Assembly (NCBI RefSeq): GCF_024505165.1
Contig: NZ_JANIBK010000001.1
Span: 1 to 64,000 of the forward strand
Source of the DNA: Methylomonas rivi
GTDB lineage: Bacteria; Pseudomonadota; Gammaproteobacteria; Methylococcales; Methylomonadaceae
DNA: 64,000 bases
Direction of reading: 5' to 3'
In this document: in pieces, positions 29,829-32,997 of the stretch
Layout: the number at the start of each line of letters is the position of its first letter
How positions within the stretch are numbered: position 1 is the first letter of the stretch
Notes under the pieces: generated by a model
What the model was told of the DNA's origin: nothing
Databases searched by the model: none
Seen by the model: only the letters and a program-made list of their open reading frames with translations
Program-made: the position numbers and the translations under genes

Positions 29829-30662
29829 TTAAGGGGTGACCGCGTATTGCTGGGAATAACTGGCGCCTTTATCGCATACTTTTCTGCTGACGGGCGACTC
29901 GCAGGAAATATCGCTGAATTCGGCCTTCAACTCGCCCGGCTTGTCCGGTATGAAATAAAAACGGAAATTGGGGTCGGCACTGATGGCAATATCGATTTTG
30001 GCGTTCAATACCGGCTTATCGTTAAAAGTGACTTTAAGCTGATCGATGAAATGCGATTTCCTAACGTATCTAGTCATCTGATCCATCTGCATACCCGTCA
30101 GATTGGGGTGACTGATCATTAGCTGTGCTTCGGTCGGCTGGCCGGGCTTCATGCCGTCATCCAAACGGAACTTGACTTTCCCCAATCGTTTCATGGCCTC
30201 GTCCAAGTCCGCTCCAACCGGCGCGGAACAACCGCCGCTGGCCTTGACGAACTTTTTGCTCATGGTCAGTTTGCCGTCATTGGTTTCGGCGATCGCGCGG
30301 ATATTGCTGTAGGTATTCACCCGCACCCGCATGGCTAAATCCGCCTTGCCGCTTTCCGGAAAAAATTCGAATTCGCCGACAAACGGAAATGGATTTTTAT
30401 CCACCAGCACCCAGATTTTTTTGATGTATTTGTCTTTGCCTTGCGGCATTTTACTCGTTACCTTGACCGGTACGATCGCCGGATCTTCCGCCCGGTAAGG
30501 CGCTTCCAGCTCGATGACCGCATCCGACTCCTCAATGGTTTTGCCGGCAAAAAACTGCGTCTTCAGGGTATTGTTCCAGGTACTGTCATCATCGCCGCCT
30601 TCGGCCAACGCGGCAGCCGGCAGCAGCATAATCAAAAAGACAAATTTGGCTAAATTTTTCAT
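29829..30662 (-). CDS. Quinoprotein-associated SoxYZ-like carrier
   Basis: Periplasmic protein of 277 residues with a signal peptide ending in ALAEGG. It joins a SoxY-like N-terminal half to a SoxZ-like C-terminal half, as in the 'quinoprotein dehydrogenase-associated SoxYZ-like carrier' family. The SoxY part ends in ASGGCSAPVG, placing the carrier cysteine C145 where SoxY has its sulfur-binding GGCGG. Such genes occur with PQQ-dependent alcohol dehydrogenases. It follows the zinc metallohydrolase gene by 24 bp. What is bound to the cysteine is not known. Confidence 0.88.
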   Translation of the reverse strand: MKNLAKFVFLIMLLPAAALAEGGDDDSTWNNTLKTQFFAGKTIEESDAVIELEAPYRAEDPAIVPVKVTSKMPQGKDKYIKKIWVLVDKNPFPFVGEFEFFPESGKADLAMRVRVNTYSNIRAIAETNDGKLTMSKKFVKASGGCSAPVGADLDEAMKRLGKVKFRLDDGMKPGQPTEAQLMISHPNLTGMQMDQMTRYVRKSHFIDQLKVTFNDKPVLNAKIDIAISADPNFRFYFIPDKPGELKAEFSDISCESPVSRKVCDKGASYSQQYAVTP

Positions 30663-30686
30663 GAGTTTCTCTCAGGCGTTAATTAT

Positions 30687-31601
30687 TCAGTCTTCCCACT
30701 CAAGTTCCGCAAAGGCAATGGTGACGTTTTTACGGTGAAATTGCTCAAACAATTGCCAGTTTTTTTTTGCCGATAAACCCGCATGATCGACGGCATATTC
30801 CAAGGTTTTGCCTTGTTTGAGCATGGCCCGGATTTCGCCGGCCAATTGCTCTAAATAGGCTATATGCGGCTGCGAACCGAGCGGCCAATCTTTCACTAAT
30901 GGACCGTGTCCGGGTATTACCAATTTGTAATGATTTTGCGCCAGCCGCCGCAATTCTTTCAGCCAACCTCGGATGCTGCCGTCGATCACAGGAATATGCT
31001 CTAAAAACAGCAAATCGGCCAGCCACAGTGTATCGGTATTTTTATCGTAAACGCTTAAGTCATTATCGGTATGCGCGGCCGGGTGCGCCGTTAACACCAA
31101 TTCGCGGTTACCCAAATTCAAGCTCATGGTCTGTTTGACTTGTAAATCGGGCGGAATAATGTTGTCCGGACTGACGCGGATATCCAACAACTCATCGGCC
31201 TTACTCAAATAGTGCGGCGCGCGGGTAGCCATGGCGCGCGCCAATTTGTAATGACCGACAAAGCGTACCCCCTTGTTTTTGAACGCCCTGTTTCCATAGA
31301 TATGATCCGGGTGTACATGGGTATTGATCACATAACATATGGGTTTGGCAGTGACTTTTTTTACCGCCTGGCGCAACGCAATGCCTTGTTGCGGACTACC
31401 GCCGCTATCGATGACCGCCACGCAGTCGTCGCCGACGATAAAACCGATATTGGCGATTTCACCGTGATTTTCGCGGTCGGGCCAATGATGTTCGGAGCGA
31501 TGAACAAACACCCCCGGTGCAGCTTCCGTTACCGGCAAGGCTGGCAAGGCCCAGCTTGCGGCGTTCATCAACAATCCTAAACCAACAAGCAATAACCGCA
31601 T
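30687..31601 (-). CDS. Quinoprotein relay zinc metallohydrolase (MBL fold)
   Basis: Exported metallo-beta-lactamase-fold protein of 304 residues with an N-terminal signal peptide (to about residue 19). The zinc-binding motif is H95-V-H97-P-D99-H100, with further ligands in AHPAAHTDND and VIPGHGPLV. It matches the 'quinoprotein relay system zinc metallohydrolase' group that accompanies SoxYZ-like carriers and PQQ enzymes in methylotrophs. It lies 8 bp after the deformylase gene and 24 bp before the carrier gene, so the four genes look like one operon. The substrate is unknown, possibly a thioester or persulfide on the carrier (inference). Confidence 0.87.
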   Translation of the reverse strand: MRLLLVGLGLLMNAASWALPALPVTEAAPGVFVHRSEHHWPDRENHGEIANIGFIVGDDCVAVIDSGGSPQQGIALRQAVKKVTAKPICYVINTHVHPDHIYGNRAFKNKGVRFVGHYKLARAMATRAPHYLSKADELLDIRVSPDNIIPPDLQVKQTMSLNLGNRELVLTAHPAAHTDNDLSVYDKNTDTLWLADLLFLEHIPVIDGSIRGWLKELRRLAQNHYKLVIPGHGPLVKDWPLGSQPHIAYLEQLAGEIRAMLKQGKTLEYAVDHAGLSAKKNWQLFEQFHRKNVTIAFAELEWED

Positions 31602-31609
31602 ATCGCACC

Positions 31610-32137
31610 CTAAGCCGCTATTCGTTTGAAAAACTCGGATTCCGAAATAATGTCTTGATTGGTTTCGACTCTATCCAGATACACCAAGCCTTGTAAATGA
31701 TCGTACTCATGCTGAAATACTCGCGCGGGAAAGTCTTCTAAAATCATCCGCCCCGGCCGCCCGTGCGCGTCTTGGTAGTCCACCCGCACGGAGCGATAGC
31801 GCGGCACCAGAGCGCGAATACCCGGCACGCTCAAACAACCTTCCCAATCCTTGACGACATTATCATCCACTATCCGAAAACGCGGATTAACCATCGCGAC
31901 AGGCGCCATGTCGGGCGCTTTCGGGTAACGTGCCGTAGGCCGCGACGCGACAATAATAATCTGACGGGAAACGCCGAGTTGCGGCGCGGCAATGCCGACA
32001 CCGTTGCTTTCCAGCATCGCATTTTGCAAATCGCTCAGTAAGACATGGAACTTCGCACAGGTGAAATCATCAATAGGCAGTGCTTTTTGGCGCAATACCT
32101 CTGCCCCCAATTGCACAATTTCAGGCTTTTCGCTCAT
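31610..32137 (-). CDS. def: Peptide deformylase
   Basis: Iron-dependent removal of the N-formyl group from new proteins. All three PDF motifs are present: GVGIAAPQ (residues 46-53), EGCLS (99-103, metal ligand Cys) and QHEYDH (142-147, ligand His residues and catalytic Glu). The length is 175 residues. It is not beside fmt, the usual neighbour of the housekeeping def, but heads the quinoprotein-relay operon, so this may be a second deformylase. It is divergent from the HvfA-like gene, with 171 bp between. Confidence 0.95.
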   Translation of the reverse strand: MSEKPEIVQLGAEVLRQKALPIDDFTCAKFHVLLSDLQNAMLESNGVGIAAPQLGVSRQIIIVASRPTARYPKAPDMAPVAMVNPRFRIVDDNVVKDWEGCLSVPGIRALVPRYRSVRVDYQDAHGRPGRMILEDFPARVFQHEYDHLQGLVYLDRVETNQDIISESEFFKRIAA

Positions 32138-32308
32138 CTTAAAACCCAGGATAAATAACTTATATCAACCATGTTAGCAGACGGCAGTATACTGTTGTTT
32201 ATTAGAATTTACTCACCTTTACTTTCATACGCTTTTTTGTGATAGTAACCGGGAGACGAAACAGGCACTTGTGCCGGGATATCCCCACCACATCAACCAG
32301 GAGACAAT

Positions 32309-32632
32309 ATGAAAAAAATTCAAAAAACACCTTTTGCATTGGCAATGAGCGCTTCCTTACTGCCTTTCGCCGCCAACGCCGCGCAACCCGGCAACAATCC
32401 ATTCGCCATGCAGGACTTGAATTCGGGCTATATGCAAACCGCGGAAGCCGAAAAAGACGGTGCTTCTAAAATGAAGGACGGCGCCTGCGGAGAAGGAAAA
32501 TGCGGCGGCCAAATGAAAGATAAAACCACCGACAAAAAAGCCATCGAAGCTGTTTGTGCCGGCAAAAAAGCCGCCCCCGCCCCAAGCGGCGACAAAGCGG
32601 AAGACGGCAAAAAATCAGAACCGGCCAAATAA
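32309..32632 (+). CDS. HvfA-like copper-peptide (RiPP) precursor
   Basis: A 107-residue secreted low-complexity protein. The signal peptide ends near residue 25 (AANAAQ), followed by NPFAMQDLNSGYMQTAE, a segment typical of HvfA-family precursors. The core then has DGACGEGKCGG with C60 and C65; EGKCG (62-66) is the pentapeptide converted by DUF692 (MNIO) enzymes to a copper-binding oxazolone/thioamide in the known HvfABCD systems. DGACG is a degenerate second copy, and C83 is isolated. The lysine/alanine-rich tail is disordered. No hvfB or hvfC gene is adjacent; the neighbours are def and iscA. The ATG is preceded by GGAGA. The modification itself is unproven. Confidence 0.7.
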   Translation: MKKIQKTPFALAMSASLLPFAANAAQPGNNPFAMQDLNSGYMQTAEAEKDGASKMKDGACGEGKCGGQMKDKTTDKKAIEAVCAGKKAAPAPSGDKAEDGKKSEPAK

Positions 32633-32673: not shown

Positions 32674-32997
32674 TCAGACGCTAAAACTTTCCCCGCAACC
32701 GCACATACCCTTGACATTGGGATTATTAAACTTAAAGGCTTCGTTAAAGCCCTCTCTGGCATAATCCAGCTCTATACCATTCAGTTTATCCAGATCCGCC
32801 TGCTTAACCAGCACCTTGACATCGAACTGATCGAACACGATTTCATCCGCGGCCGGTTCATCTGCATAATCCAGCACATAAGCGTAACCGGAACATCCCG
32901 CCGGTTTCACACCCAAACGCAAGCCCAATCCGGAACCGCGTTTTTGCAACTGTTTGCGGATCTGATTCGCCGCGCGCTCGGTCACCGTAATACTCAT
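32674..32997 (-). CDS. iscA: A-type iron-sulfur carrier IscA
   Basis: Iron-sulfur cluster assembly protein of 107 residues. The three ligand cysteines of the HesB/IscA family are at C35 (AGCSGY), C99 and C101 (GMCGCGESF). ErpA is an alternative, but the place at the end of the iscR-iscS operon favours IscA. It starts 11 bp after the cysteine desulfurase. The scaffold gene iscU, which usually lies between iscS and iscA, is missing from this operon. Confidence 0.9.
   Translation of the reverse strand: MSITVTERAANQIRKQLQKRGSGLGLRLGVKPAGCSGYAYVLDYADEPAADEIVFDQFDVKVLVKQADLDKLNGIELDYAREGFNEAFKFNNPNVKGMCGCGESFSV

Follow-up and report, generated by a model that had tools for sequence, protein, structure and literature searches.

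The window, a 64,000-nucleotide stretch of the Methylomonas rivi genome, carries a gene that resembles the precursors of copper-binding peptides matured by MNIO (DUF692) enzymes and that stands apart from any such enzyme. Is this a functional gene, and, if so, which enzymes would process its product? We used this precursor (hereafter, the orphan) and the MNIO family profile PF05114 to search the window's genome and those of 80 relatives (81 in all), and paired the positions of the matches. The features discussed below are:

32309..32632, + strand: stand-alone oxazolin-type (Buf_EGKCG/HvfA-like) precursor gene, 107 aa; unlinked orthologues in 35/37 genus genomes
32309..32446, + strand: leader, a Sec-like signal (MKK...ANA) followed by NPFAMQDLNSGYMQTAE, homologous to the MNIO-linked long-precursor leader by leader HMM comparison; N30, P31, F32, L37, Y41, A45 and E46 invariant
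32468..32509, + strand: core KMKDGACGEGKCGG with tandem Cys60 and Cys65, predicted 5-thiooxazole sites; core pN/pS about 0.03
32546..32572, + strand: third site, EAVCAGKKA (Cys83); EGKCA in most orthologues
31610..32137, − strand: def (peptide deformylase), the divergent neighbor that marks the slot
32674..32997, − strand: iscA, the convergent neighbor
32185..32194, no strand assigned: conserved palindrome CAGTATACTG between def and the orphan, a possible operator or def −10
32218..32246, + strand: candidate promoter from a phylogenetic footprint, TTTACT, 17 nt, GATAGT, with TGT before the second hexamer

A conserved stand-alone precursor gene

The 107-aa ORF occupies exactly the position first noted for it, with CCAGGAGACAATATG around its start, and its protein begins MKKIQKTPFALAMSASLLPFAANA-AQPGNNPFAMQDLNSGYMQTAEAEKDGASKMKDGACGEGKCGGQMKDK... 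The earlier note, made from the letters alone, had described an HvfA-like precursor with a signal-like N-terminus, a NPFAMQDLNSGYM segment and an EGKCG core; the sequence bears this out, as the protein comprises a Sec-like leader, NPFAMQDLNSGYM and a tandem DGACG-EGKCG (DGACGEGKCG). The Sec-like signal is read directly from the sequence (MKK, a hydrophobic stretch, ANA) rather than from a signal-peptide predictor. The protein matched no Pfam family up to E 1 and no solved structure. The gene is flanked by divergent def and convergent iscA and is therefore a single-gene unit. Beyond def, at 29829-31601 of the window (− strand), TIGR04559 (quinoprotein relay zinc metallohydrolase 2) matched at 410.6 bits and TIGR04557 (SoxYZ-like carrier) at 281.8 bits; relatives of these two proteins were found near the orphan in 22/25 and 20/25 surroundings, respectively.

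We defined an unlinked orphan as a match with E < 1e-20 and no MNIO less than 3 kb away. Far from being rare, as had been implied, such a gene was present in 35 of the 37 Methylomonas genomes and missing from two that are each 78% complete (G029 and G030). The linear distance between orphan and MNIO ranged from 85 kb to 3.8 Mb in the 16 genus genomes with both on one contig; in the remaining ones the two were on different contigs, some of them short. The genomic slot was compared in a sample of 25 genus genomes, with nine further orphan-bearing genomes outside the sample. The def gene adjoined the orphan in 23 of these surroundings, the other two reaching a contig end at that side, and iscA lay on the other side in 20 (two contig ends and three rearrangements, L040, L050 and L051, account for the rest). 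Orthologues in 35/37 genomes, the def slot in 23/25 and strong purifying selection mark a conserved stand-alone gene beyond chance: the ORF is a real gene for an HvfA/Buf_EGKCG-type precursor. A chance ORF is ruled out by the 35 orthologues together with the pN/pS values.

These values, calculated from the 96 pairs out of 595 whose synonymous divergence was moderate (the pairs are not independent), were 0.21 for the signal, 0.08 for the leader motif, 0.03 for the core, 0.28 for the spacer, 0.09 for the third site and 0.17 for the tail. Cys60, Cys65 and Cys83 were invariant in 35/35 orthologues, with both TGC and TGT in use, and every orthologue carried the tandem core G[AS]CGEGKCG, within which CGEGKCG is invariant. 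Because the tandem core is invariant and its pN/pS is 0.03, the earlier reading of DGACG as degenerate was wrong; it is half of an invariant tandem core and no leftover. Cys83, the third invariant cysteine, had gone unmentioned in that reading. A fourth cysteine, mostly in EGNCGAN, occurs in 22/35 orthologues and is missing in the window's species. The MNIO-linked Methylomonas precursors (L003, L080-L113) are long and Gly/Met-rich and keep CGEGKCG in 3/35 cases, versus 35/35 for the orphan.

Upstream DNA was compared in 34 regions, one orthologue being dropped for too short an upstream sequence. The palindrome CAGTATACTG was exact in 15/34 and within one mismatch in 29/34 (shuffle mean, 0.05 of 34), and TTTACTTT and TTTGTGAT were each exact in 27/34; allowing one mismatch brought these counts to 30 and 34, respectively (shuffle means, 7.0 and 5.9). 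Because these motifs are conserved at the orphan and none of the three rose above shuffles upstream of linked precursors, the orphan has its own conserved upstream region. A scan for a generic consensus promoter upstream of the orphan found none. We also considered a regulon marked by the palindrome and rejected it: the 11-mer GCAGTATACTG occurs once in the genome, and the palindrome, at one mismatch, is found upstream of 0/35 linked long precursors, 0/7 short ones, 0/28 stand-alone ones outside the def slot and 0/31 linked genes of the wider scan. The palindrome is confined to this slot and could be part of def itself. Upstream of the short linked precursors (L004; L114-L119), TGTAAG-N16-CGACTG is conserved in seven sequences, a motif that resembles an ECF sigma promoter.

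Candidate maturation enzymes

Profile searches of the window's contig (C1) gave no match to MNIO (DUF692, PF05114) or DUF2063 (PF09836), in agreement with the earlier observation that no hvfB or hvfC lies nearby, and no maturation gene was found hidden on that contig. Elsewhere in the genome (4.52 Mb in 382 contigs, 99.97% complete), PF05114 matched twice, on contigs C65 and C103, these being its sole matches in the genome; two DUF2063 matches were found, each beside one MNIO. As a control, PF05114 matched in 2/14 named genomes. The DUF692 and HvfC-like (DUF2063) genes proposed to act in trans are thus present, and the case that the earlier note would have taken as refutation, a genome free of DUF692, does not apply. 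Both MNIOs pass the HvfB model NCBIfam NF003818 (442.7 and 398.9 bits; cut-off 360), and the C103 cluster also includes an HvfX-family protein (132.5 bits; cut-off 80). The recommended search for other precursors recovered two linked ones, a Gly/Met-rich protein of 197 aa on C65 (long type) and one of 108 aa on C103 (short type). The supposition of a methanotrophic host likewise held, with two matches to the AMO/pmoA family PF02461.

An MNIO match was found in 36/37 genus genomes, including 31/31 of those with a completeness of 90% or more and no more than 5% contamination. Because nearly all close relatives keep the lone gene, a single enzyme pair encoded far away probably matures two or more peptides.

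Which pair would this be? We typed linked precursors by their spacing to the MNIO, as long (300-1200 bp) or short (under 160 bp), and found the long type in 36/37 genus genomes and the short type in 10/37. Scored with an HMM of the orphan leader, long leaders reached a median of 64.0 bits (n=35) versus 19.5 for short leaders (n=7); shuffled long leaders had a median of −0.2 bits (171/175 reported, highest 11.9). Moreover, 12 orphan-bearing genomes have exactly one MNIO match, which lies 372-989 bp from another precursor, that is, at long-type spacing. Several of the 12 are fragmented drafts, and four (G008, G017, G021 and G027) are assembled into one or two contigs with 99-100% completeness. 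The long precursor itself was read in 11 of the 12; in G033, where the MNIO is cut by a contig end, the match alone was seen. Because of the leader scores and these 12 genomes, the long-type pair is, on sequence grounds, the most likely maturase of the orphan. Shared ancestry alone could yield the similarity between the orphan and long leaders.

The window copy falls short of both curated HvfA models. It scored 14.7 bits against NCBIfam NF050137 (KCGExKCG_twice), below the cut-off of 19.5, and 15.3 bits against NF050188 (HvfA equivalog), below the cut-off of 95. NF050137 was passed by 4/9 relatives scored singly (L016, 21.5; L034, 20.1; L051, 21.4; and L052, from outside the genus, 30.5), and the best NF050188 score among the 35 members was 40.8 bits (E 2.5e-10). 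Since the NF050188 cut-off is missed, the orphan is not filed as HvfA itself. Two features of the Buf_EGKCG/oxazolin family are present: tandem EGKCG-type cysteine repeats, here DGACG-EGKCG, and an MNIO with PME type 1 (DUF2063) in the genome, here two of each. Precursors of an hvf operon sit beside hvfB and hvfC; for the orphan neither lies on the window's contig, and in relatives the gene is never within 3 kb of them on the same contig.

Stand-alone relatives beyond the genus

A wider contig scan kept the best 80 of 166 relatives and inspected up to 6 kb on each side, much less on some contigs. Among these 80, 49 had no HvfB/HvfC match nearby and 31 had one. The 49 stand-alone precursors divide into 21 beside def or iscA and 28 elsewhere, whose neighbors, named by sight, include mgtE-, mraZ-, rsmH- and ftsI-like genes in Methyloprofundus and Bathymodiolus symbionts, as well as a Slp-like lipoprotein or an ECF-sigma-like gene. 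In three loci (L161, L163 and L172), the stand-alone precursor is directly followed by the ECF-sigma-like gene, again named by sight. Another locus, L074 on contig C8 of G048, carries a tandem pair of precursor matches (E 2.3e-6 and 7.1e-6), and the MNIO and DUF2063 matches of that genome are on other contigs (C30 and C2).

Within the same best 80 of 166 relatives, CAG[NK]K occurs in 37/49 stand-alone versus 6/31 linked precursors. On a tree of 87 chosen rows and 95 kept columns, with many forks unresolved, the stand-alone/linked label changed 4 times versus 29.2 in shuffles. A test for a single clade of stand-alone precursors gave p-AU 0.07, so that a single origin is neither shown nor rejected.

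Several genomes depart from the pairing of precursor and enzymes. G001 (83% complete) has the orphan without an MNIO or DUF2063 match, and G033 (81% complete) is without a DUF2063 match. G042 (98% complete), from another genus of the family, carries a stand-alone relative with an intact core and neither an MNIO nor a DUF2063 match; two of its congeners have MNIO matches and their own stand-alone relatives. Of the 28 stand-alone loci outside the def slot, 23 could be followed to 22 genomes, of which 19 have an MNIO match and three do not, one of the three being apparently the G042 genome again.

Proposed maturation, alternatives and known systems

We propose, with a probability of roughly 0.6, that the orphan is a compact, separately controlled second substrate, whose cysteines the long-type HvfBC converts in trans to 5-thiooxazoles and which leaves the cytoplasm as a copper-binding peptide. 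HvfC of a pair encoded elsewhere (MNIO/DUF2063), most likely that of the C65 long-precursor cluster, would recognize the signal-peptide/NPF...GYM leader in the cytoplasm, and HvfB would oxidize Cys60 and Cys65, perhaps Cys83, to 5-thiooxazoles. The Sec machinery would then export the peptide, with cleavage of the signal, and the mature form would bind copper in the periplasm, buffering or carrying it in a methanotroph whose genome includes pmoA/amoA-family genes. Since the orphan is a single-gene unit and has a conserved upstream region of its own, its level could be set independently of the hvf clusters. The product is worded here as 5-thiooxazole, with a loss of 4 Da per cysteine, following the available text of two later papers (PMC12668002, PMC13419390), which makes the oxazolone/thioamide product of the earlier note outdated.

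By analogy, published substrate rules for FonBC and HvfA would fit the orphan. In the consulted parts of PMC12668002, FonBC, which is another enzyme, tolerates D at the first position of the repeat and Ala at the third or the fifth; it accepted DGKCG, and it modified a two-repeat peptide and left a one-repeat peptide unmodified. HvfA without its signal is poorly modified, according to the text seen of PMC13419390. Counting against the proposal are the exceptions G042, G001 and G033, the 3/22 genomes without an MNIO and the sub-cut-off HvfA scores. As to copper, the authors of PMC12538549, in the part available, hesitated to credit a related peptide with protection against copper.

Export of the orphan as a plain, unmodified thiol peptide, a metal or redox buffer whose core is conserved for direct metal binding, is an unlikely reading. 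In its favor, G042 and G001 hold such precursors without an MNIO match, and PMC12452194, in its accessible text, reports that 67 of 2583 genomes with EGKCG precursors lack an MNIO and allows for unmodified use. However, the NPF...GYM leader is nearly invariant (pN/pS 0.08), as would be expected if an enzyme still reads it, and MNIO matches occur in all 31 good genus genomes. If an enzyme does act, it might belong to the short-type cluster (C103) or be a further MNIO. The window's genome does have two MNIOs, and the MNIO of some genomes had no precursor beside it that the orphan search found; yet a precursor at short spacing is present in just 10/37 genus genomes, the leader HMM gives 19.5 bits for short leaders and 64 for long ones, and the one MNIO match of the 12 orphan-bearing genomes sits at long-type spacing, all of which makes this source very improbable. 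The third site of the window's species, EAVCAG instead of EGKCA, and its missing fourth cysteine might suggest a paralogue in decay that once belonged to a cluster, moved and then ceased to function, but with a tandem core invariant in 35/35 at pN/pS 0.03 and a conserved slot and upstream region, decay is hardly tenable.

Known systems compare with the orphan as follows. Stand-alone EGKCG precursor genes have been reported, and their maturation in trans already proposed, in the available text of PMC12452194; the Buf_EGKCG/oxazolin precursors described there share with the orphan EGKCG-type repeats, an MNIO with DUF2063 in the genome and, by the look of its N-terminus, a Sec-like signal. The present case differs in that a single stand-alone gene was followed through a genus at a constant location; its core is compact (3 or 4 Cys), and the DNA upstream of it is conserved in its own right. 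HvfA/oxazolin of Haemophilus influenzae (PMC13419390, as far as available) shares EGKCG core cysteines and HvfB-family enzymes with the orphan and has a signal peptide that acts like a leader, to which the Sec-like N-terminus of the orphan would correspond; unlike the orphan, with one tandem, one further Cys and no operon, it has three AEGKCGEGKCG motifs (six Cys) in the hvf operon. Fontiphorin FonA and the captophorins share EGKCG-type repeats, with substrate rules compatible with DGACG-EGKCG, and FonA differs in having seven modification sites and a gene cluster (PMC12668002, available part). Methanobactin (MbnA/MbnB) is also a copper RiPP made by an MNIO, but the orphan differs from it in its Sec-like leader and EGKCG core, and the two MNIOs of this genome score 57.4 and 21.1 bits against MbnB, far below the cut-off of 325.

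The main text of PMC12452194 contains no word beginning with "methylo". In the literature searched, no paper has both "Methylomonas" and "DUF692", and among the papers listed none, judged by title and the start of the abstract, concerns these genes in methanotrophs. To this the present analysis adds a conserved gene of the stand-alone kind, with its slot and selection profile, the relation of its leader to the long-type cluster, and genomes in which one MNIO match faces two unlinked precursors.

A broader picture, which we regard as quite unlikely, would have one MNIO pair make, throughout the Methylococcales, a dedicated second product from the stand-alone subfamily. This product would be a compact copper carrier of the periplasm, regulated separately, that serves the copper economy of methane oxidation (e.g., by supplying pMMO), and excess copper would be left to the Met-rich linked long peptide. 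Whether MNIOs mature unlinked precursors in trans is a question that PMC12452194, in its available text, leaves open. Methylomonas is well suited to answering it cleanly, because some of its genomes combine a single MNIO match with a long precursor beside it and a conserved precursor elsewhere. The answer would also tell whether copper handling in methanotrophs is divided between two related peptides.
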